From positions 1 through 64,000 of the forward strand of contig JAFRDO010000077.1 of NCBI GenBank assembly GCA_017403825.1: a stretch of DNA of 64,000 nt. Reading direction: 5' to 3'. Below are positions 29,698 through 49,105 of the stretch, piece after piece. Position 1 is the first letter of the stretch; every line of letters starts with the position of its first letter. The translations under genes were made by a program, and so were the position numbers. Origin of the DNA: Kiritimatiellia bacterium. GTDB lineage: Bacteria > Verrucomicrobiota > Kiritimatiellia > RFP12 > UBA1067. A model generated the notes under the pieces. That model was given only the letters and a program-made list of their open reading frames with translations, was not told the origin of the DNA and made no database searches.

Positions 29698-30342
29698 TCA
29701 ACGGCAGTTCTCAACAAGCCGACGGGCGACGTCGGCTATCCGCCCGTATTCGCCAGCGGCAATCCACTCCTTGTTCACAAGCGAGCCGCTCGCACCGACG
29801 CCTACACAGCCGGCCTTGATGTAGTCTGCCGCATTCTCCGGCGACACGCCTCCGACTGCAATCAGCTTAAGATGCTTCAGCGGGGCGAGGACGTCCTTAA
29901 CGTATGCCGGACCCAACGCGCGGACCGGGAACACTTTGACGTAGTCGGCGCCAGCTTCGTTCGCCACCTCCATTTCCGTCGGCGTGAACGTGCCAGGCAT
30001 TGTGACAAGCCCGGCGGCACCGGCTGCACTGATAATCTGCGGATTGCAGTTCGGCGTGACGATGAATTCCGCCCCGGCGTCAATCGCACGGTCCAGCTGG
30101 GCTGCCGTGACGACGGTGCCGGCGCCGACATGCATGTCAGGGAACGCCTCGCGAACCGCCCGAATGGCCGCGACCGTCGCCTCCGGGTCGCCTGTCTGGT
30201 CGAACGTGACCTCCACCAGGCGTATGCCGCCCTCGTGATACGCCTTCGCCAGCCTGACGCAGACCTCTGGCGCCATTCCGCGAATGATTGCAACGACCTT
30301 CGTCGTCGCAAGGCTAGCCTTGACTTCTTCTTTCCTATTCAT
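29698..30342 (-). CDS. KDPG/KHG aldolase family protein (last gene of aromatic operon)
   Basis: 214 aa. Class I aldolase cleaving 2-keto-3-deoxy-6-phosphogluconate or 4-hydroxy-2-oxoglutarate. Schiff-base Lys136 in GADYVKVFP, Glu44 in LVEVTFDQT and Arg21 in AIIRG are all present, with the phosphate loop VGGVSPEN. It starts 13 bases after the aroE-aroK stop, so it appears co-transcribed with the aromatic genes although it has no known role there. A second paralogue lies at 41843-42487; the two are only distantly similar. Confidence 0.9.
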   Translation of the reverse strand: MNRKEEVKASLATTKVVAIIRGMAPEVCVRLAKAYHEGGIRLVEVTFDQTGDPEATVAAIRAVREAFPDMHVGAGTVVTAAQLDRAIDAGAEFIVTPNCNPQIISAAGAAGLVTMPGTFTPTEMEVANEAGADYVKVFPVRALGPAYVKDVLAPLKHLKLIAVGGVSPENAADYIKAGCVGVGASGSLVNKEWIAAGEYGRIADVARRLVENCR

Positions 30343-30355
30343 GTTGTTCCTCCGT

Positions 30356-31516
30356 TTAAGCCTTTGTTATGGACGTCATGTCCACAATCTTTACCGAAAA
30401 CGAATCATAATGTTCCCTGCGCGAGGCAAGCAGCGCTGCAAGTCTCTTCGCCTTGTCCCCGGCGAGGAGAGGACGGTCCGAGGAGGCTGCGGCACGCCGC
30501 AACAGTTCCTCTTCTGGGCACTCCAGCAGAACCACGCGCCCGGTTGTCTCGGCAAGACTGCGGGATTCGCCGTCCAGCAGTGCGCCGCCACCCAGCGCAA
30601 CGACTTGCCCTCGCGAAGCTGCTACACGCGCCAGCGTCGCTTTCTCGATGCGCCTGAACGCCGCCTCGCCGTCCGTAGCGAAGATGTCGGCGATGGGCCG
30701 CCCCTCCTCGCGTACGATCTCTGCGTCGATATCGACGAGCGGCATGCCCGTGGCAGACGCAATCCTCCTTGCCCACGTCGTCTTGCCTGACGCCGGAGGA
30801 CCATAAATGTACAGGTTGCCTTCTGGCGTGGACGCATCAGGCGACGTCAGCCGGAACGCGCGGTACGCTTGGGCAACAAGCATTACCATGCCGTCTTCCG
30901 CTGCCTTGCCGTATGCCCTTGCCTCCCGCACGAGACGCGTTGGCGACGGGTTGTATACGAGATCAAGCACTATTTCGCACGCAGGGAACCTGGAGATGTC
31001 GATCCGCCGCCCATCTACGTCAGGGAACATTCCTACCGGCGTCGCGTTCACGATGATTCCTGCGTCCTGCGGCGGCAATTCTCCGCGCCGAACAAGCGCG
31101 ACTTCCTCGCAACGGTCCTCCAGCACCGCCTTCGCCGTAAGTGCAGCACCGCCAGCGCCAAGAACCGCCGCACGTCGCGGCACAGACTTTCCCGATGCCG
31201 CGCAGACGGAGTCGAGCAGTTGCGAGAATCCGAAGTAATCGGTGTTGTCGCCGCGAAGCCGTCCGTCGGGAAGGCGCGTGACGAGATTGACGTTGCCGAG
31301 CCGCTCGGCAAGCGGCGTCAGTTCGTCGCATATCTGCGCGACCGTCTGCTTGTAGGGAATCGTGACGTTTAGGAAGTCCAGCCCCGATCCGCGCACAAAG
31401 TCCGCCACGTCTTCCGGCTCGCGTTCGTAAAGACGATAGTCGTAGTCGCCGAAGAAACGGTGTATCTGCGGCGAGAGGGAATGGCCGAGACGACGGCCCA
31501 GCAGCCCGGCCTTCAT
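30356..31516 (-). CDS. aroEK: Fused shikimate dehydrogenase - shikimate kinase
   Basis: 386 aa, two enzymes in one chain. AroE half at about 1-228: LGHSLSPQIH, NVTIPYKQ (catalytic Lys56), GDNTDYFG (90-96), NADP-binding VLGAGGAA, and a closing LVAQAYRAF. AroK half at about 233-386: Walker A GPPASGKTT (239-247), VDIDAEIV, the R-containing FRRIEKATL, and ALGGGALL. AroE reduces dehydroshikimate and AroK phosphorylates the product, so consecutive pathway steps are joined. It overlaps aroC by 4 bases. No internal start with a ribosome site was noticed at the junction. Confidence 0.95.
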   Translation of the reverse strand: MKAGLLGRRLGHSLSPQIHRFFGDYDYRLYEREPEDVADFVRGSGLDFLNVTIPYKQTVAQICDELTPLAERLGNVNLVTRLPDGRLRGDNTDYFGFSQLLDSVCAASGKSVPRRAAVLGAGGAALTAKAVLEDRCEEVALVRRGELPPQDAGIIVNATPVGMFPDVDGRRIDISRFPACEIVLDLVYNPSPTRLVREARAYGKAAEDGMVMLVAQAYRAFRLTSPDASTPEGNLYIYGPPASGKTTWARRIASATGMPLVDIDAEIVREEGRPIADIFATDGEAAFRRIEKATLARVAASRGQVVALGGGALLDGESRSLAETTGRVVLLECPEEELLRRAAASSDRPLLAGDKAKRLAALLASRREHYDSFSVKIVDMTSITKA

Positions 31517-32454
31517 CGCCCCGCCTCCTGCAGCATGCCGTCTAGCACTAGCGCTACGGCCGCCTCGGCAGCGACCGCGCCACGAAACGCTACGCAGCGG
31601 TCATGCCGTCCCTTCACCGTCAGTTTTGCTGGAGTCATTGTCGCGAGATCGACGGAATCCTGCTCGATGGAAATCGAAGGCGTCGGCTTGAACGCAATCC
31701 TTATCACGATAGGCGCGCCGACGGAGACGCCGCCCAGGATGCCGCCGCAATGATTCGTGCGAAGAACTACGCGGCCGTTCTCGACAGCAAATGCGTCGTT
31801 GGCCTCAGAGCCGCGCATCTCCGCGAGTGCAAAGCCGTCGCCAAACTCGACGCCCTTCACCGCTGGAATCCCGAAAAGCGCGGCGGCAAGGCGAGACTCT
31901 ATGCCGTCCGTGCCGACATCGCCTATGCCTGCCGGGAAGCCAGAGACGACAAGGTGCACCGTGCCACCGACAGAGTCGCCCACATCTACGCCGTCCAGCG
32001 ACGGCCGCCGCACCTCGGACGAAATCGCAATGCCGCGCCGTTTCAGCAGTTGCAGCGCAATGCCGCCTGCTATGCAGAGCGGCGCGGTCATGCGTCCCGA
32101 CCACTTGCCGCCGCCCGTCGGGATCTTTCCGCACTTGAGCCACGACGCATAGTCGGCATGTCCCGGACGCGGCACGGTCGAGACGTTGGCGTAGTCCTGC
32201 GGACGCACGTTTGTGTTTCGGATCACGGCACGGATCGTCGTGCCGTCCGCAACGCCGTCAACGACGCCGGCGACGAACTCTGGCCTGTCCGGCTCGCGGC
32301 GCGGCGTAGAAAGTCCGCCCTGCCCGTTGCCCGGCGCGCGCCTGTCGAGAAAAGCCTGAAGCTCCTCCATGTCGATGCGCGTTCCAGTCGGCACGCCTTC
32401 CATCTCCACGCCGATTTCAGGCGCGTGGGATTCGCCGAATATCCTGATCTTCAC
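31513..32454 (-). CDS. aroC: Chorismate synthase
   Basis: 313 aa, shorter than the usual 350-390. Converts EPSP to chorismate using reduced FMN. FGESHAPEIGVEMEGVP near the start, NTNVRPQDY, RPGHADY (first catalytic His region), and GRHDRCVAFRGAVAAEA near the C-terminus are all recognisable. The usual GESHG reads GESHA. It lies within a run of 4-base overlaps: aroEK after it, aroA before it. Confidence 0.95.
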   Translation of the reverse strand: MKIRIFGESHAPEIGVEMEGVPTGTRIDMEELQAFLDRRAPGNGQGGLSTPRREPDRPEFVAGVVDGVADGTTIRAVIRNTNVRPQDYANVSTVPRPGHADYASWLKCGKIPTGGGKWSGRMTAPLCIAGGIALQLLKRRGIAISSEVRRPSLDGVDVGDSVGGTVHLVVSGFPAGIGDVGTDGIESRLAAALFGIPAVKGVEFGDGFALAEMRGSEANDAFAVENGRVVLRTNHCGGILGGVSVGAPIVIRIAFKPTPSISIEQDSVDLATMTPAKLTVKGRHDRCVAFRGAVAAEAAVALVLDGMLQEAGR

Positions 32455-33470
32455 GGGTTGCTCCTTTCGAGCGCGGCGAAGTCATCCCAGAAGCGCGGAT
32501 ACGACTTGGCAACGCAGCCTGGATCGTCGACGGCTATCGGCCTGTCGGAATAGCATGCCATGACCGCCGCCGACATGGCGATCCGATGGTCGCCGAACGT
32601 CCTTATCGTCTCGCCGCGCCGCACTGACTCAATCAGCGCAGCGGTTGACGCGATGCGGTCCGACTCCTTCAGACGCAGTCGCTCGGTGCCTGTAAAAGTG
32701 ACGGCTCGCCCGGTCGCAGCAGCATATGCGGCAAGGACGGGGTAGAGGTCCGGCGTCTGTGAAATGTCTAGCGTTACGCCAGCCTCCGATGCCGCGTCAA
32801 TTACCGCCAGCAGGCCGACGACTGCGCGGTCGCCCTGTAGAGAATCGTTGCGAAGTCCCTTCGCCTCCACGCCCATAGCGAGGAAAAACGCCGCCTGCGA
32901 CCAGTCTCCCTCGACCTCTCGTCCACCGCAGAAATGGTAAGCCTGACGCCCCGGCACGCGCCATGCGCCTTCGCCTGTCCGTTCGAACGAAATGCCCGAT
33001 GCCCTAAGCGTGTCCTCGGTCAGGCGCACGTATGCCTCGCTCTGCAACGTGCCTTCGACGACGATTTCCGAATCCCAGTCGGCGAGCGGCAGCGCCATGA
33101 GGAGCCCGCTCACGAACTGCGATGAGACGTTGCCGGGCACGACGTAGCGGGACTTCTTCTCGAACGGCATGCGCGGACGCTCGCCAAGGCGCCCTTCACA
33201 GGCGAAGTCGCCCTTCCAGCCCATAACGCCAGCAATCGGTTCGAGGAGCCGCAGCGTGGTGCCGCTCTCTCCGCACGGCCAGACGCTTTCGCCGGACATC
33301 ATCGCCTTCAGGCATGCGCGAGTCGCGAGCGTGTCCTTAGATTCGCCGCGAATGACGGGCGGTTCGGCGCCGGAAAGCGCCGCCGCTATCAGCTCGCGGT
33401 GGGCGATCGACTTCGACGATGGCACCGTTACAGCGCCACGCCGCCGCCCCGGTTCTATCACTTTAACCAT
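32451..33470 (-). CDS. aroA: EPSP synthase (3-phosphoshikimate 1-carboxyvinyltransferase), compact
   Basis: 339 aa against about 430 in most bacteria. Joins shikimate-3-P and PEP. Substrate-binding PSSKSIAHR at the N-terminus (usual PGSKS), GESGTTLRL, SSQFVSGLLMALPLA, the catalytic Asp in ISQTPDLYPVLA, RLKESDRI, FGDHRIAM and the final VAKSYP Lys are present, so it should be active despite the missing ~90 residues spread through the domains. Overlaps aroC by 4 and aroB by 13 bases. Confidence 0.94.
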   Translation of the reverse strand: MVKVIEPGRRRGAVTVPSSKSIAHRELIAAALSGAEPPVIRGESKDTLATRACLKAMMSGESVWPCGESGTTLRLLEPIAGVMGWKGDFACEGRLGERPRMPFEKKSRYVVPGNVSSQFVSGLLMALPLADWDSEIVVEGTLQSEAYVRLTEDTLRASGISFERTGEGAWRVPGRQAYHFCGGREVEGDWSQAAFFLAMGVEAKGLRNDSLQGDRAVVGLLAVIDAASEAGVTLDISQTPDLYPVLAAYAAATGRAVTFTGTERLRLKESDRIASTAALIESVRRGETIRTFGDHRIAMSAAVMACYSDRPIAVDDPGCVAKSYPRFWDDFAALERSNP

Positions 33471-34435
33471 GCGTCCAATTCCGACATCGGGATATCTTTA
33501 AGTTCGCATTCGCCGATGCGCTTCGGCACGACGAGCGTAATCGTCTCGCCAGAGCGCTTCTTGTCGTTTGCCAGATAACCGCGCAGATCGTCCTGCGTCA
33601 GGTTGAGCGGTTCCGAGAAAACATCGTCGACCTGAGGGAATCCGTATTCGTCGAGAATTGCTCCGATCTCCGGCACATTGCGCCCGACGATGCGCATTCC
33701 GACGGCCACAGCCTCGCCGTGTGAAAGGCGAAAGCTACTCGCGCTTTCGATGGCGTGGCCGAACGTATGGCCGAGGTTTAGCAACTTTCGCCGTCCCCCT
33801 TCGCGGAAGTCTGCCGCCACGACCTTTTCCTTCCAGCGGGCGCATCGCTCCACTAGCGGCGCGAGCGCGTCGAGCGACGGACGCGGAGACAGCGCCGCGA
33901 AGAGCTCCGGATCGAAGAGAATTGCAGTCTTAATAAGCTCGGCAAAACCGTTCTTCATCTCCCGCTCCGGCAGCGTGGCGAGGAAGCCGACGTTACGGAC
34001 GATCTGGCTCGGCAGGTGGAACGCGCCTACAAGATTCTTGCCCTCCGGAATGTCAACGCCAGTCTTGCCGCCGATGGAAGAATCGACCATCGCAAGAAGC
34101 GTGGTCGGGACTTGCACATAGTCAATGCCGCGCATGTATGTCGCAGCGGCAAAGCCAGTAAGGTCGCCTACAACGCCGCCGCCAAGCGCGACGGCTATGT
34201 CGGTGCGCGTCATGCCAAGCGCGGCGAATCCGCGCACGAGCTCGGCGTACGTCTCGAGCGTCTTGGAGCGTTCGCCTGCTGGGAACACGATGCGCTCCAC
34301 GCGCAGTCCGGACGTCTCAATCCGCCTAACCGCCGCGTCGCCGTAAAGACGGTCCACGTTGGAGTCCGTGACAAGCGCGACTGTCTTAACCTTCGGGAAC
34401 TTCGAGAAGTCCACTTCGATGTCCGGCAGTTCCAT
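33458..34435 (-). CDS. aroB: 3-dehydroquinate synthase
   Basis: 325 aa. Converts DAHP to dehydroquinate with NAD+ and a divalent metal. FPAGERSKTLETY, ALGGGVVGDLTGFAAATYMRG (quoted in part), PTTLLAMVDSSIGGKTG and NLGHTFGHAIE with metal ligands Glu/His/His are all visible. ATG 34435 shares one base with the tyrA stop; a GTG one codon upstream is less likely. Its 3' end overlaps aroA by 13 bases. Confidence 0.96.
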   Translation of the reverse strand: MELPDIEVDFSKFPKVKTVALVTDSNVDRLYGDAAVRRIETSGLRVERIVFPAGERSKTLETYAELVRGFAALGMTRTDIAVALGGGVVGDLTGFAAATYMRGIDYVQVPTTLLAMVDSSIGGKTGVDIPEGKNLVGAFHLPSQIVRNVGFLATLPEREMKNGFAELIKTAILFDPELFAALSPRPSLDALAPLVERCARWKEKVVAADFREGGRRKLLNLGHTFGHAIESASSFRLSHGEAVAVGMRIVGRNVPEIGAILDEYGFPQVDDVFSEPLNLTQDDLRGYLANDKKRSGETITLVVPKRIGECELKDIPMSELDAWLK

Positions 34436-35211
34436 CACTTCGTCCTTTCCTTTGCCGCACGCCCTTCCGCCAGCAAGCGCCTGAGCGCATCTGCGTTGCC
34501 ATCGCGAACAGCGGTGCGGTAGTCGGCTAGACGGTCGATAAGACGTCTTAGCACCGCATCGAGCGACTTGCTGTTGAACAGGAAGAGATCAGTCCAGATG
34601 TCGGGGTCAACGGTGGCGACGCGCGTCATGTCCTGATAGCTGCCGGCGGAAAAGCCGGCGTGCGACGTGGCGAGCGGGTCGCGCACGTAGGCGGACGACA
34701 CAACGTGCGCGAGCTGGCTCGTGTAGGCAATCATCTCGTCATGGCGATCGGGGTCGGTTACGACGAAGCGCGAGAAGCCGACGGGCGCGAAAAGCTCCTT
34801 AAGGCGTTCCACGGCTGCCGGCGGCGTCCAGTCGTACGGAGTAAGCACCATCGATGCGCCATTGAAGAGCGCGGCATCGGAGTTCTCGTAGCCGCTTACC
34901 TCCTTGCCGGCCATCGGGTGTCCGCCTATGAACGTCCAGCGCGCCACGCGCGTGATGTCCGCCAGTTCGCGGCAGACAACGCCCTTCACGCCAGCTGCGT
35001 CGGTGACTAACGCATCAGCGGCGAACTCGCCGGCATGTTCACGAATCCACGGCGCGACGAACCGCGGCGGAAGGCATACGACTACGAGTCCGCACGAGGC
35101 GACCGCCTCCGGCGCGGCGTCCTTAAGGTTTAGGACCTCGTGTCCTGCCTTGCGGAACGCCTTCTCGAAGGAGCCTCCTATAAGGCCCATGCCGCGTATG
35201 CCGACGGTCAT
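34435..35211 (-). CDS. tyrA: Prephenate dehydrogenase
   Basis: 258 aa, monofunctional. Oxidises prephenate to 4-hydroxyphenylpyruvate for tyrosine. Rossmann GMGLIGGSFEKAF at the N-terminus, then TDAAGVKG, GGHPMAGKEVSGYENSDAALF (quoted as GGHPMAGKE and YENSDA) with the catalytic His, and YTSQLAHVVSSAY. No ACT or chorismate-mutase domain is attached. One base separates it from the DAHP synthase stop. Confidence 0.92.
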   Translation of the reverse strand: MTVGIRGMGLIGGSFEKAFRKAGHEVLNLKDAAPEAVASCGLVVVCLPPRFVAPWIREHAGEFAADALVTDAAGVKGVVCRELADITRVARWTFIGGHPMAGKEVSGYENSDAALFNGASMVLTPYDWTPPAAVERLKELFAPVGFSRFVVTDPDRHDEMIAYTSQLAHVVSSAYVRDPLATSHAGFSAGSYQDMTRVATVDPDIWTDLFLFNSKSLDAVLRRLIDRLADYRTAVRDGNADALRRLLAEGRAAKERTK

Positions 35212-35212
35212 C

Positions 35213-36226
35213 TCAGGCTCTCCGCCAGGCGTGCGGACGGATCGCCGCGATTTTCTTCATCGTTTCAGCGAACATCTCCGGCGTCTGCGACTGGACGCCG
35301 TCGCACAGCGCGTGAGGCGGATCGTTGTGGACCTCGATGATGAGTCCGTCCGCCCCCATCGCAGTCGCACCCATTGCGACGGGCTCTACGAGATGCGCGT
35401 ATCCGGTCGCATGGCTCGGGTCGATCACGACAGGAAGGTGCGAGAGTCGTTTCAGCACAGGAATCACCGTAAGGTCAATGGTGTTGCGCGTCGCAGTCTC
35501 GAAAGTGCGTATGCCGCGCTCGCAAAGCATGACGTTCGGGTTGCCGCTCGCCATGATGTACTCGGCGCTCATCAGCAGCTCCTGCAGCGTCGCGCTCATG
35601 CCGCGCTTGAGGAGAACCGGCTTCTTCGACATCGAGCCGACTTCCTTGAGGAGATCGAAGTTCTGCATGTTCCTGGCGCCGATCTGTATGACGTCCACGT
35701 CGTTGAAGAGCGGCAGGTGCTCGATCGCCATAAGCTCCGTTACGATCGGCAGGCCCGTCTCGCGCTTTGCCTCAAGAAGAATCTCAAGCCCGCGCTTGCC
35801 GAGGCCCTGGAACGAGTAAGGCGACGTGCGCGGCTTGAATGCACCGCCGCGCATCAGCGTCGCGCCTGACGCCTTCACGCTCTTTGCGATGCCGACCATC
35901 TGCTCGACCGACTCCACGCTGCACGGCCCTGCGATCACCTGAAAGTTGCCTCCGCCGATCTTCATGCCCGAGCAATCGACGACGGAATCCTCCGGGTGAA
36001 ACTTCCTGTTCGCCGCCTTGTACGGTTCCTGTATGCGCTGTACGCTCTCCACGACGCTGAGCGCCTGGACAAGCCCGATGTCCATCTTCGCTACGTCGCC
36101 TACGCAGCCGATTACCGTCTCGCGGTCGCCCGTAGAGACGTTCGGCTTGATGTTCCGCGCCCTTAGCCAGCCTAGCAGCGACTCGACCTGGCCCTTGTCC
36201 GCATCTTTCTTCAGTACGATTATCAT
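35213..36226 (-). CDS. aroF: DAHP synthase with N-terminal ferredoxin-like regulatory domain
   Basis: 337 aa. Condenses PEP and erythrose-4-P, the entry step of the shikimate pathway. Residues 1-70 (IIVLKKDADKGQVESLL onward) form the ferredoxin-like domain that in Thermotoga-type enzymes mediates Tyr/Phe feedback. The barrel shows AGPCSVES, MRGGAFKPRTSPYSFQG (metal/PEP binding), LLKRGM and DPSHATG. It starts 42 bases after the pheA stop with an AAAGGAATG ribosome site. Enzyme-level feedback would add to the attenuator control upstream. Confidence 0.95.
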   Translation of the reverse strand: MIIVLKKDADKGQVESLLGWLRARNIKPNVSTGDRETVIGCVGDVAKMDIGLVQALSVVESVQRIQEPYKAANRKFHPEDSVVDCSGMKIGGGNFQVIAGPCSVESVEQMVGIAKSVKASGATLMRGGAFKPRTSPYSFQGLGKRGLEILLEAKRETGLPIVTELMAIEHLPLFNDVDVIQIGARNMQNFDLLKEVGSMSKKPVLLKRGMSATLQELLMSAEYIMASGNPNVMLCERGIRTFETATRNTIDLTVIPVLKRLSHLPVVIDPSHATGYAHLVEPVAMGATAMGADGLIIEVHNDPPHALCDGVQSQTPEMFAETMKKIAAIRPHAWRRA

Positions 36227-36268: not shown

Positions 36269-37417
36269 TCATTCCTCATATGCGCCGAGGAACGTGAAGT
36301 GTTCGATATCCGGATCGTTGGCAAGACCGGTAAGCAGCCGCACCGTCCGCTCGTCGTTGACCGACGCCTCCAACTCGAAGATGAAACGGAACTCGAAGTC
36401 CGATCCTTCCACGGGCCGCGACTCGAGCTTCGTAAGATTGACGCCAATTGAGGCAAAGCGCACCAGCACATCGGCCAGGGCTCCAGGCCTGTGCCCGAGG
36501 CTCATCAGCAGCGACATCTTGTTTGCCTTCGGATATATCTCGCCGCGCTTTGATATGCAGATGAAGCGGGTGAAGTTGCTGGTGGTGTCGGAGACTTCTT
36601 CGGCAATCGGCTCGAGCCCGTAAAGCGCCGCACACTCTCGGGATGCTATCACGGCGGCGTCGCGGCGCCCCGACGCGGCAAGCTCTTTAGCCGCCGCAGC
36701 CGTGTTGGACGCCGGCACGCACCGGATTTTGGAATTGGCGGCGAGGAAGTTTGCGCACTGGGCGAGCGCGTGAGGGTGGCTAGTGATCTCGCGCAAGTCG
36801 GAAATCCGCACGCCCTTCGGAGCAAGCAGCACATGGTGAATCCGCAGGCGCGTCGCACGTACGATCCGGAACGAGTGCCGTGCCATCAGGTCATAGACCG
36901 CGGTAACGCTGCCGGCCTTCGAGTTCTCTATGGGCAGCACGCCGTAGTCGCACATCCCCTTCTCTACAGCCATGAACACGTCCTCGAATCCCTTGAAGTA
37001 GAGTATGGACGGGAACTTGACCATCGCGCACAGCGCCTGCTGCGAATAGCTTCCCTCGGTGCCGGGACAGGCGACCGTAGCGCGCGAAGGAAAAGACTTG
37101 CCGCCGGCGGCAGCGACCGCATCGGCGATTTCCGTTCCGAGCGCGCACCTGTCCGGAAGCGCGGCACGCTGCCGCGCACGAGAAATCGCAAACAGCGTGG
37201 TGAAGACGAGGCGCGCCTCGTCCTCCATGTCCGCGCCGATCTCCTCGGCGACCCGTACCATCACCTCGCGCTCGCGCGCAGGATCGAGAATAGGCAGACC
37301 CTTCTCGATCTTGGCACGCAGCACGTCGCCAGCGATTTCAAGACGCCGCTTGAGGAGCGGCACCAGCCGTCCGTCGATGTCGTCTATTTCCTTCCGTGCC
37401 TCTTCCAGGTTTTTCAT
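36269..37417 (-). CDS. pheA: Bifunctional chorismate mutase - prephenate dehydratase (P-protein)
   Basis: 382 aa. Chorismate mutase (AroQ type) at about 1-88 (EEARKEIDDIDGRLVPLL), prephenate dehydratase at about 111-290 (GTEGSYSQQA, LPIENSKAGSV, and the catalytic Thr in NFTRF, 281-285), ACT domain at about 300-378 with the Phe-binding ESRP motif (332-335). Makes phenylpyruvate from chorismate and should be inhibited by Phe. It is the first enzyme gene of the operon and is preceded by a leader ORF and a terminator hairpin. Ribosome site AGGGAAGAG upstream. Confidence 0.96.
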   Translation of the reverse strand: MKNLEEARKEIDDIDGRLVPLLKRRLEIAGDVLRAKIEKGLPILDPAREREVMVRVAEEIGADMEDEARLVFTTLFAISRARQRAALPDRCALGTEIADAVAAAGGKSFPSRATVACPGTEGSYSQQALCAMVKFPSILYFKGFEDVFMAVEKGMCDYGVLPIENSKAGSVTAVYDLMARHSFRIVRATRLRIHHVLLAPKGVRISDLREITSHPHALAQCANFLAANSKIRCVPASNTAAAAKELAASGRRDAAVIASRECAALYGLEPIAEEVSDTTSNFTRFICISKRGEIYPKANKMSLLMSLGHRPGALADVLVRFASIGVNLTKLESRPVEGSDFEFRFIFELEASVNDERTVRLLTGLANDPDIEHFTFLGAYEE

Positions 37418-37469
37418 TCGATTGACTCTTCCCTTTGATCGTCTTTCTTGCGGAGAATGGCCGAGAACG

Positions 37470-37502
37470 AAAAACGGCCTCGCTTTCGTGGAGCGGGGCC
37501 GT
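37470..37502 (-). terminator. Attenuator terminator in the pheA leader
   Basis: On the minus strand an 11-base arm (37502-37492, ACGGCCCCGCT) pairs with 37484-37474 with one mismatch around a 7-base loop, and is followed by TTTT. It stands 37 bases after the leader stop codon and 52 bases before pheA. The 5' arm can alternatively pair with CGGGGC at 37556-37551 inside the leader ORF. Confidence 0.85.
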
Positions 37503-37539
37503 TGTCTTCATTCATGACCGATGTCATCTGAACGCAGCA

Positions 37540-37605
37540 CTAGCAGACCCGCCCCGACGTAAAGCCGAAGTAGTAAAACCACTCGATCTGATAGCTCTTG
37601 TTCAT
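37540..37605 (-). CDS. pheL: Aromatic leader peptide of the pheA operon
   Basis: 21-codon ORF (ATG 37605, TAG ending at 37540), too short for routine calling. Residues 9-15 read W-F-Y-Y-F-G-F, with a further Tyr at 5: one Trp, three Phe and three Tyr in 21. It sits between a good promoter and an intrinsic terminator just ahead of pheA, the arrangement of pheL/trpL-type attenuators. Stalling at the aromatic codons when charged tRNA is short would favour read-through into the operon. No ribosome site fits, and the predicted transcript start is about 6 bases before the ATG, so initiation is close to leaderless. The function is inferred from position and composition. Confidence 0.85.
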   Translation of the reverse strand: MNKSYQIEWFYYFGFTSGRVC

Positions 37606-37617
37606 ACGACGAGTGAT

Positions 37618-37647
37618 AGTTTACCAAATTCCCTTCCGCCTTGTCAA
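37618..37647 (-). promoter_or_regulatory. Promoter of the pheL-pheA aromatic operon
   Basis: TTGACA (37647-37642), 18-base spacer, TAAACT (37623-37618) preceded by TGG, on the minus strand. It overlaps the stop of lptG. This is the only promoter in the window with a consensus -35. Confidence 0.82.
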
Positions 37648-38741
37648 CGCTGCTTCCAGAACGCACGGATGCCCAGCGCCAGGAAGAGAGCATACGGGAA
37701 AAGCGCGGCAAGGATTGCCGGACACCATCCGTTCTTTGCGGCGACCATGCCGGCGATTACGACGCCGTAGAACGAAAAGTACATGGCCAGGGCGCCGATG
37801 ATTCCGCGGAAGACGGACTGCCTTCCCGACGCGATGCCGGCTGGAATCGCAAAAAGCGTGATCACGATGCATGCCCATGGCGCCGCAATCTGCGCCCAGA
37901 CGTCATACACGCAGTCGCGCCGGGCCTCGGCGGAAAGCTCCGGGTGGGTGCGCAGATAGCGCAGGCGGTCCTGCACGGAGTTGAACTTCCACGGACGGTT
38001 CTGCATCACGAAGTCCGTAGGACGCTCTCCGAACTCGCTGAAGCAACGAAGCGGCAGCGCATCCATCTCCGGGGTCGGCGTCGCAATCTCCTGGCCCTGC
38101 GCACCGTAATGCTGCACCTTGGGACCGAAGAACCACCACTCGCCGTCAAGGTAGTCGGCCCTCGGCGCAGACACGCTCATGCACCGCCCTCCGCCCGGAC
38201 GGTCGATCGTGACCTGAACGTTCGACAGGCTCTTCCCCTCGTCGTCGCGAAACGCGTCGATGTTCCATATCCGGCCTTCCTTCGCGTTGCGAAAGACGAT
38301 GTTGTCCCCCTTCGCCATGGTGGTCTGGTCAAAGCGGTCCTTCTTCATCTGCGCCGCCCACTGCGCCTTCCATGGCACGAAGACCTCGTTCACGTATGCC
38401 ACGCAAGCCGCCATCACAAGCGCAACGGCCAGGAGCGGACGGACGATTGCGATGAAGCTCACGCCGCTCGCGCGCATGGCGACGATTTCCGAGTGGCGGC
38501 AGAAGCTCCACATGGTGTAGAGTGTGGCCAGCATCAGCGCGGCAGGCACGATGTAATGGAAATAGGGGGCCAGATATCCGCAGAAGTACAGTACTGCAGT
38601 CTTCGTAGAAAGCTTCGCCGCCGCCATCCGCGAGAACGACCCGAACAGGTCGAACAGCACGTAGATGGAGATGAACCCGGTCAGGCAGTAGAACAGCGGG
38701 ACCAGGAACTCCCTAAGGACGTAGCGAGTAAGTATTCTCAT
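37644..38741 (-). CDS. lptG: LptF/LptG-family LPS export permease
   Basis: 365 aa. N-terminal ILTRYVLREFLVPLFYCLTGF with the first of about six membrane segments; segments near 15-35, 55-80, 95-118, and three in 275-360, with a large periplasmic jellyroll-like region (about 130-265) between them. This is the LptF/G plan; with LptB it drives LPS to the outer membrane. It begins just 8 bases after an extended -10 box, so it can be made from its own leaderless mRNA as well as by read-through from pgpA. Only one LptF/G paralogue is in the window. Confidence 0.88.
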   Translation of the reverse strand: MRILTRYVLREFLVPLFYCLTGFISIYVLFDLFGSFSRMAAAKLSTKTAVLYFCGYLAPYFHYIVPAALMLATLYTMWSFCRHSEIVAMRASGVSFIAIVRPLLAVALVMAACVAYVNEVFVPWKAQWAAQMKKDRFDQTTMAKGDNIVFRNAKEGRIWNIDAFRDDEGKSLSNVQVTIDRPGGGRCMSVSAPRADYLDGEWWFFGPKVQHYGAQGQEIATPTPEMDALPLRCFSEFGERPTDFVMQNRPWKFNSVQDRLRYLRTHPELSAEARRDCVYDVWAQIAAPWACIVITLFAIPAGIASGRQSVFRGIIGALAMYFSFYGVVIAGMVAAKNGWCPAILAALFPYALFLALGIRAFWKQR

Positions 38742-48257: not shown

Positions 48258-49105
48258 CTCTCCAGCTCCTTCATCACGAAACGGCAATTAGCTATGCAAG
48301 GCTCGAGAGAGTCGGGCTTGCCTTCCGCCTCTATGATGTACCACTTGCATCCCGGCTCGGTGGACATGTAGTCGAAGACATCGTCCCACGGAATGATCGG
48401 TCCGCCGTCCGTCGGACGTTCGCCGAAGATGCCGGACACCGTAGGCACGTTCTCCTTCAGGTGGATCGAGTGGTGGCGGTTCCTGTATTTCTTCAGTAGC
48501 GCAACCACGTCAGTGCCCGTGTGGAGCGCATTAGCCGTGTCAATCTGCTGCTGAAGAAGTTTCGACGCATCGCTGTAGATGACGTCCCATGCCGTCAGAC
48601 CGCCATCGTAGACAGTCGTGAAGTGATGGTATGTCGTGTGGACTCCAACCTTTATGCCGTAAGGCGCGGCGGCCTCCGCCGCCAGCCCCATGTCATGTCC
48701 GAAGCGGCGGTAGGCGTCGGCTGAGTCGCGCTTCGCGTGAGGCGTCGTTATGCTTTCGATCCCAGCCTCGGCGCAGAAGTCAAGAGAACGCTTAAGCCCG
48801 TCGCCAACGAGATCGATGTCGCCGTTCACATGCGTGCCGGCGGCCTTCAGTCCGGCATCGGAAAGAAGCTTGCGTATCTCCTTAGCCGTGTGGTTCTCGT
48901 ATCCGGCGAACTCAACGCCATCGAATCCGCCGGCTTTCAGGGCAGCGAGGCACTTCTCCGGCTCTTTCCAGAATATCTTCCATATCGAGTATAGCTGCGC
49001 CGCAACCTGCGGACGGCACTTCGCCGATGCTGTAACGCAGCCATCAGTCATGAACGCGCCTGCAGCAAGTGCAGATGCGGACAGGAAATCCCTTCTTGTC
49101 ATCAT
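48245..49105 (-). CDS. Tat-exported sugar phosphate isomerase/epimerase-type protein
   Basis: 286 aa. TRRDFLSASALAAGAFM signal with a Cys (GCVTAS) at the possible lipobox position. Barrel: QVAAQLYSIWKIF, FDGVEFAGYENH, AAGTHVNGD, KVGVHTTYHHF, SIHLKENVP and WYIIEAEGKP, with the metal-binding His/Glu/Asp set. Same architecture as 15359-16336. AAAGGAGG ribosome site. Its product is presumed periplasmic whereas the next gene encodes a cytosolic aldolase. Confidence 0.88.
   Translation of the reverse strand: MMTRRDFLSASALAAGAFMTDGCVTASAKCRPQVAAQLYSIWKIFWKEPEKCLAALKAGGFDGVEFAGYENHTAKEIRKLLSDAGLKAAGTHVNGDIDLVGDGLKRSLDFCAEAGIESITTPHAKRDSADAYRRFGHDMGLAAEAAAPYGIKVGVHTTYHHFTTVYDGGLTAWDVIYSDASKLLQQQIDTANALHTGTDVVALLKKYRNRHHSIHLKENVPTVSGIFGERPTDGGPIIPWDDVFDYMSTEPGCKWYIIEAEGKPDSLEPCIANCRFVMKELERCRL

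Follow-up and report, generated by a model that had tools for sequence, protein, structure and literature searches.

The closest described systems are short leader ORFs ahead of aroF, pheA and the trp genes. In Corynebacterium glutamicum the AroR leader, which contains Phe-Tyr-Phe, precedes an operon that includes aroF (Neshat et al. 2014, as described in PMC11802643 and PMC11525245); the leader was also seen in another study (PMC4046766). Stalling in AroR under Phe limitation reportedly raises transcription, whereas Tyr is without effect (PMC11802643). A further upstream ORF, uORFC-13-1, was predicted before aroF in 24 sequences from Acholeplasma and environmental DNA (Brewer et al. 2021; PMC8632094). 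Escherichia coli pheL, a Phe leader before pheA, controls pheA alone (cited in PMC11802643). The trpL leaders of E. coli and Sinorhizobium meliloti sense Trp and control trp genes; the S. meliloti trpL leader RNA starts at the AUG (PMC7298713) and sets a precedent for leaderless attenuator ORFs. A His leader was described in bacilli by Naville and Gautheret (PMC2965389).

The locus described here belongs to a Kiritimatiellia bacterium of rumen type and lies in a stretch of 64,000 nucleotides, which is called the window. Between lptG and pheA the window very probably encodes a ribosome-mediated transcription attenuator of the trpL/pheL type that would control a whole shikimate-Phe-Tyr operon. 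Like AroR, it consists of a short aromatic leader ahead of an operon with aroF, the gene for DAHP synthase; unlike AroR it belongs to another phylum and has seven aromatic codons, one of them for Trp, where three are named for AroR, and the operon that it heads comprises most of the shikimate pathway together with pheA and tyrA. With uORFC-13-1 it shares one or more Phe codons, promoter elements, an adjacent intrinsic terminator and the position ahead of aroF (PMC8632094); uORFC-13-1 is, however, a prediction, and no Rfam model matched the window leader. These likenesses are taken from the published descriptions; leader sequences diverge fast. In all of these cases an aromatic leader precedes the gene for DAHP synthase or the operon that contains it: in the window the genes follow as pheA-aroF, and in the relatives aroF follows directly. 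The latter is a difference from pheL, whose attenuation logic before pheA is the same; another is that the window leader heads seven aro cistrons. The logic is also that of S. meliloti trpL, whose AUG-start RNA resembles the very short 5' UTR predicted in the window (PMC7298713), but both trpL leaders differ in serving trp genes.

All elements of the locus lie on the minus strand (Table 1), in the order lptG end, predicted promoter, leader ORF, terminator and pheA, the ATG of which is at 37417. The original prediction had named a promoter, an ORF, a GC-rich stem with a T-run and pheA in this order, and each of them was found at the position it had given. The -35 box TTGACA (37647-37642) overlaps the lptG stop codon (37644-37646), and the -10 box TAAACT ends at 37618, 12 nt before the leader AUG (20-27 nt in many other members), from which a 5' UTR of about 5 nt is predicted in the window. 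No Shine-Dalgarno sequence is visible ahead of this AUG, so that translation would need to be near-leaderless. Seven of the 21 leader residues are aromatic, and the cluster WFYYFGF precedes a Phe/Tyr operon, with an intrinsic terminator between the leader ORF and the first gene. Rfam gave no match at the gathering threshold in the whole window. A T-box was considered for the leader region and rejected, as Rfam, T-box consensus RNA included, had no match up to E 5 within 37400-37700.

Table 1. Features of the leader locus and the genes behind it, in the direction of transcription
Feature	Coordinates	Strand	Basis
Predicted promoter TTGACA-18 nt-TAAACT, TG-extended	37618..37647	-	Consensus-type site; like sites at related leader loci
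Leader ORF MNKSYQIEWFYYFGFTSGRVC, 21 codons and UAG	37540..37605	-	Aromatic leaders also in relatives
Regulatory codons 9-15, W-F-Y-Y-F-G-F, proposed stall site	37561..37581	-	Aromatic density and comparison with kin
Region 2, GGGGCGGG, end of leader ORF, proposed antiterminator strand	37548..37555	-	Complementarity to region 3
Region 3, CCCGCTCC, within the terminator 5' arm, common to antiterminator and terminator	37490..37497	-	Pairing analysis
Intrinsic terminator (predicted): hairpin 37503-37473, T-run TTTTT 37474-37470	37470..37503	-	Sequence scan
pheA, chorismate mutase/prephenate dehydratase/ACT, first operon gene	36269..37417	-	Pfam
aroF, DAHP synthase, type I beta	35213..36226	-	Pfam and relatives
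tyrA, prephenate dehydrogenase	34435..35211	-	Pfam
aroB, 3-dehydroquinate synthase	33458..34438	-	Pfam
aroA, EPSP synthase	32451..33470	-	Pfam
aroC, chorismate synthase	31513..32454	-	Pfam
aroE-aroK fusion, shikimate dehydrogenase and shikimate kinase in one protein	30356..31516	-	Pfam
KDPG/KHG aldolase, 13 nt past the last aro cistron	29698..30342	-	Pfam and spacing

The Pfam assignments and the spacing of the genes make seven aro cistrons secure. The gaps between them are 42 nt and 1 nt, followed by overlaps of 4 to 13 nt. The aldolase gene is likely a further member and probably co-transcribed; its product has no obvious part in aromatic synthesis. The operon had been proposed to contain nine cistrons, of which the seven aro cistrons stand; the count of nine does not, since the candidate for a ninth, a gene that encodes a VWA-domain protein, lies beyond a gap of 74 nt and its membership is uncertain. 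None of the operon genes was seen to encode a 3-dehydroquinate dehydratase.

Across the surrounding 14 kb, two promoter-like sites were found (2.6 expected), so that the site alone is not rare, and the number of terminator-like sites, ten, is at chance level (10.2 expected). When the 230-nt intergenic stretch was shuffled 5,000 times with its dinucleotides kept, no short ORF with six aromatic residues in eight arose, in keeping with the initial claim that such a cluster is unlikely by chance, and five in eight occurred at a frequency of 0.0006. The two strands of the window together contain about 1,000 short ORFs, of which a single one besides the leader reaches six in eight. It lies on the plus strand (48429-48554), opposite a minus-strand ORF, and is probably a chance occurrence.

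The nearest named records to the window aroF are Kiritimatiellae metagenome-assembled genomes from the rumen. The usual gene order in the relatives is aroF-pheA-tyrA, with the leader 150-200 nt ahead of aroF; examples are MTRNYNKFAWWYFFGFTSERGCAY (L151), MNRYYRFGWYFYFGFMSERGRAH (L144), MNGTFKFAWYYYFGFTAGAARAC (L153), MNRYFYGFYFYFTGLMGRARLP (L160) and MNNNRYFYFGFFYFAFTERGVG (L042). An ORF with at least five aromatic residues in eight is present in 42 of the 77 upstream regions from the order, some of which represent a single sequence retrieved under two locus ids, against 0.6 expected in shuffles. Among the named loci the fraction is 68/80 (3.5 expected); Clostridia (Oscillospiraceae, Lachnospiraceae and further families) make up most of this set, alongside some Kiritimatiellae, two Lentisphaerae and a Treponema, and because its loci were chosen by similarity to the window aroF they are uninformative on other aroF lineages. 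An intrinsic terminator lies between leader and gene at 42 of 43 loci of the order and 67 of 68 named loci. A promoter-like site with TG extension precedes the leader at 38 of 43 related loci; the match to the consensus averages 9.3 of 12 positions, compared with 6.4 for shuffles. At the aromatic positions of 13 close sequences, 174 codon pairs differ, and in 149 of them both codons are aromatic; the genetic code is such that about 2/9 of random single changes in a Phe or Tyr codon yield an aromatic codon again. The comparison of related genomes that the initial reading had called for thus supports it: aromatic codons, promoter, terminator and the antiterminator pairing treated below are kept, and the flanking letters vary.

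The leader tracks the operon head rather than one gene. Where pheA is the first gene, in the window and at L062 (pheA-aroA-aroF), it is pheA that the leader precedes; a search of the relatives upstream of pheA alone yielded almost no leaders, as their operons usually begin with aroF, which makes the operon head the right anchor. In 35 of the 77 regions from the order no leader directly precedes aroF. These include the close kin L145, L147, L060 and L148, indicating that the leader is easily lost or replaced; in some leaderless regions aroF may not be the first gene of the operon. At L145, L147 and L060, aroF-pheA-tyrA is present and the aromatic leader ahead of aroF is absent. A horizontal transfer of aroF together with its leader between Clostridia and Kiritimatiellota was considered. 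In a quick aroF tree, 41 Kiritimatiellota-type proteins form one group (support 99) nested among the Clostridial ones. Outside the aromatic cluster the Clostridial and Kiritimatiellota leaders are dissimilar. Upstream of aroF at L066-L139, many Clostridial leaders share a stretch near the stop codon that resembles TTTGTGCTGCA; it pairs with terminator arms of the GCCGCACAGA type and could be made into an RNA family.

Recurrence across genomes also bears on a simpler account, in which the hairpin only terminates the lptG transcript, the aromatic ORF and the promoter are chance occurrences, and pheA is transcribed from a promoter further downstream. The hairpin does sit behind lptG, it is nearly symmetrical, the scan scores a plus-strand terminator too, and promoter-like sites are as frequent as stated above. 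This account is nevertheless very improbable, given that the aromatic ORF is found again ahead of aroF in many genomes, as are promoter, terminator and antiterminator pairing, that the leader remains at the operon head where the first gene differs, and that no minus-strand promoter-like site other than that of the leader was found between 24500 and 38800. Since shuffles never gave such a cluster and the relatives keep cluster, promoter, spacing and terminator with different letters, the aromatic leader arrangement, as judged by sequence comparison, is not due to chance.

In 37 distinct Kiritimatiellota sequences the last leader codons show complementarity to the terminator 5' arm, and compensatory changes are present. 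In the window GGGGCGGG pairs with CCCGCTCC, including one G-U pair, and at L146 GGAGCGGGG pairs with CCCCGCTCC. Both partners have changed together to GGAGCAGGG/CCCTGCTCC at L141, to GCGGGGTTT/AAACCCCGC at L045 and to GCGGAG/CTCCGC at L042 and L044, where the 3' arm of the terminator retains a G and forms a G-U pair; at L063 the compensatory pairing uses entirely different letters. Relative to shuffled leaders the duplex has a mean z of -2.9 over the 37 sequences, 30 of which reach p<=0.05. The window duplex on its own does not reach significance relative to shuffles (p 0.10), owing to the GC-rich stretch in which it lies. When leaders were re-dealt among terminators, the native total was unmatched in 20,000 permutations in both groups (p 5e-5, which is not a strict probability because related sequences are not independent).

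The effect of a ribosome was modeled by folding the RNA before the 3' arm of the terminator is made, with the ribosome masking chosen codons. The mean pairing of the 5' arm with upstream sequence was 0.81 with the ribosome at the aromatic codons versus 0.33 with the ribosome at the stop codon. As this outcome is partly trivial, more masking leaving fewer partners, controls were shuffled: the mean difference of 0.48 fell to 0.15 with the post-aromatic stretch shuffled, and that of the window, 0.61, to 0.20 (sd 0.12). Pairing permutation and mask test together point to an antiterminator that excludes the terminator and can be masked by a ribosome at the stop codon. In the window model without a ribosome the 5' arm is still largely paired upstream (0.75), which leaves no evident protector hairpin.

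A leader of this kind might also act at translation, by sequestering or exposing the ribosome-binding site of the first gene or by translational coupling. The leader stop codon and pheA lie on one RNA, and a translational mode exists among the described leader peptides, those of the erm genes being an example. The probability of this mode is again very small, because 109 of the 111 leader loci have an intrinsic terminator with a T-run and because the conserved pairing uses an arm of that terminator and not the gene start. Transcription attenuation, the reading originally advanced, is supported by the comparative conservation of leader, promoter, terminator and antiterminator pairing.

From parts whose order, conservation and covarying pairing are directly apparent, we infer stalling, termination and read-through as follows. 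RNA polymerase would start a few nucleotides ahead of the leader AUG. If charged Phe-, Tyr- or Trp-tRNA ran short, the leading ribosome would stall within codons 9-13 and leave region 2, which starts at the end of codon 17 and runs to codon 20, free to pair with region 3 (CCCGCUCC) once the latter is made. The terminator would then be blocked and pheA-aroF-tyrA-aroB-aroA-aroC-aroEK transcribed. With plentiful charged tRNAs the ribosome would reach the UAG and mask region 2, whereupon region 3 would join the 3' arm of the terminator and transcription would end at the U-run. The scheme is that of trpL, with region 2 located within the last part of the leader ORF. For an assumed ribosome footprint that extends 14 nt past the first position of the A-site codon, a stall anywhere in codons 9-13 would spare region 2 and one at codon 15 would cover part of it; accordingly placed stalls in the window model gave 5'-arm pairings of 0.75, 0.75 and, at the last aromatic codon, 0.48.

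This leader apparently serves the bacterium as a gauge of its Phe and Tyr supply, and perhaps of its Trp supply. Phe and Tyr would be the dominant amino acids sensed. A Trp codon is present in 28/37 Kiritimatiellota leaders versus 5/66 in the other, mainly Clostridial group; Trp makes up 9% of the aromatic residues of the Kiritimatiellota leaders, a share not above that expected for ordinary proteins, and a Trp-sensing role is therefore possible. What would be sensed is the charging of tRNA. Aromatic-rich stalling peptides exist, and the nascent peptide itself could arrest the ribosome in response to a metabolite or drug. Arrest peptides retain specific residues, however, whereas these leaders vary widely and retain only their aromatic character, with exchanges among F, Y and W; arrest by the peptide is thus the least probable of the alternatives.

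In the same genome a Trp leader, MNIAISNIWWWRRAHEAR, with WWW, a promoter and a terminator, precedes trpE, so that the same architecture serves a second pathway. At this site (L230, upstream of trpE on contig C71 of G000) the promoter reads TTGACG-18-TAGAAT, and the terminator sequence closely resembles the one behind the aro leader. No clear case of a leader was seen before pheS or its neighbor in this genome.

The mechanism is of a known kind, tested for AroR-aroF and predicted for uORFC-13-1. The scope of the attenuator had been considered undescribed in this group. No report on aro-operon leaders of Kiritimatiellota or Clostridia was found in the literature searched, which largely lacked subscription papers, and to that extent the claim stands; as a statement on scope in general it went too far, as AroR (PMC11802643) and the Acholeplasma uORF (PMC8632094) precede it. 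The Kiritimatiellota members are new, and so are the operon-wide scope and the occurrence of the leader ahead of the majority of the nearest Clostridial aroF genes (the named loci counted above). We tentatively raise, without favoring it, the broader idea that a single attenuator class, at the head of type I-beta aroF operons in Clostridia, Kiritimatiellota, Lentisphaerota and a Treponema, determines the flux through the whole aromatic pathway, the Kiritimatiellota version reading all three aromatic amino acids beside a Trp-only trpL.

The comparative evidence indicates that classic leader-peptide attenuation governs aromatic amino acid synthesis in Kiritimatiellota, and does so over a pathway-wide operon. 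The charging of Phe and Tyr tRNAs is predicted to set the transcription of the whole pathway. Small ORFs of this type can be annotated as leaders, a rule that the present comparison offers. The occurrence of the architecture ahead of most of the nearest Clostridial aroF genes hints at a large unlisted set of attenuators of the same kind, and points to a widespread regulator, unmatched by Rfam, in bacteria of the gut and the rumen.
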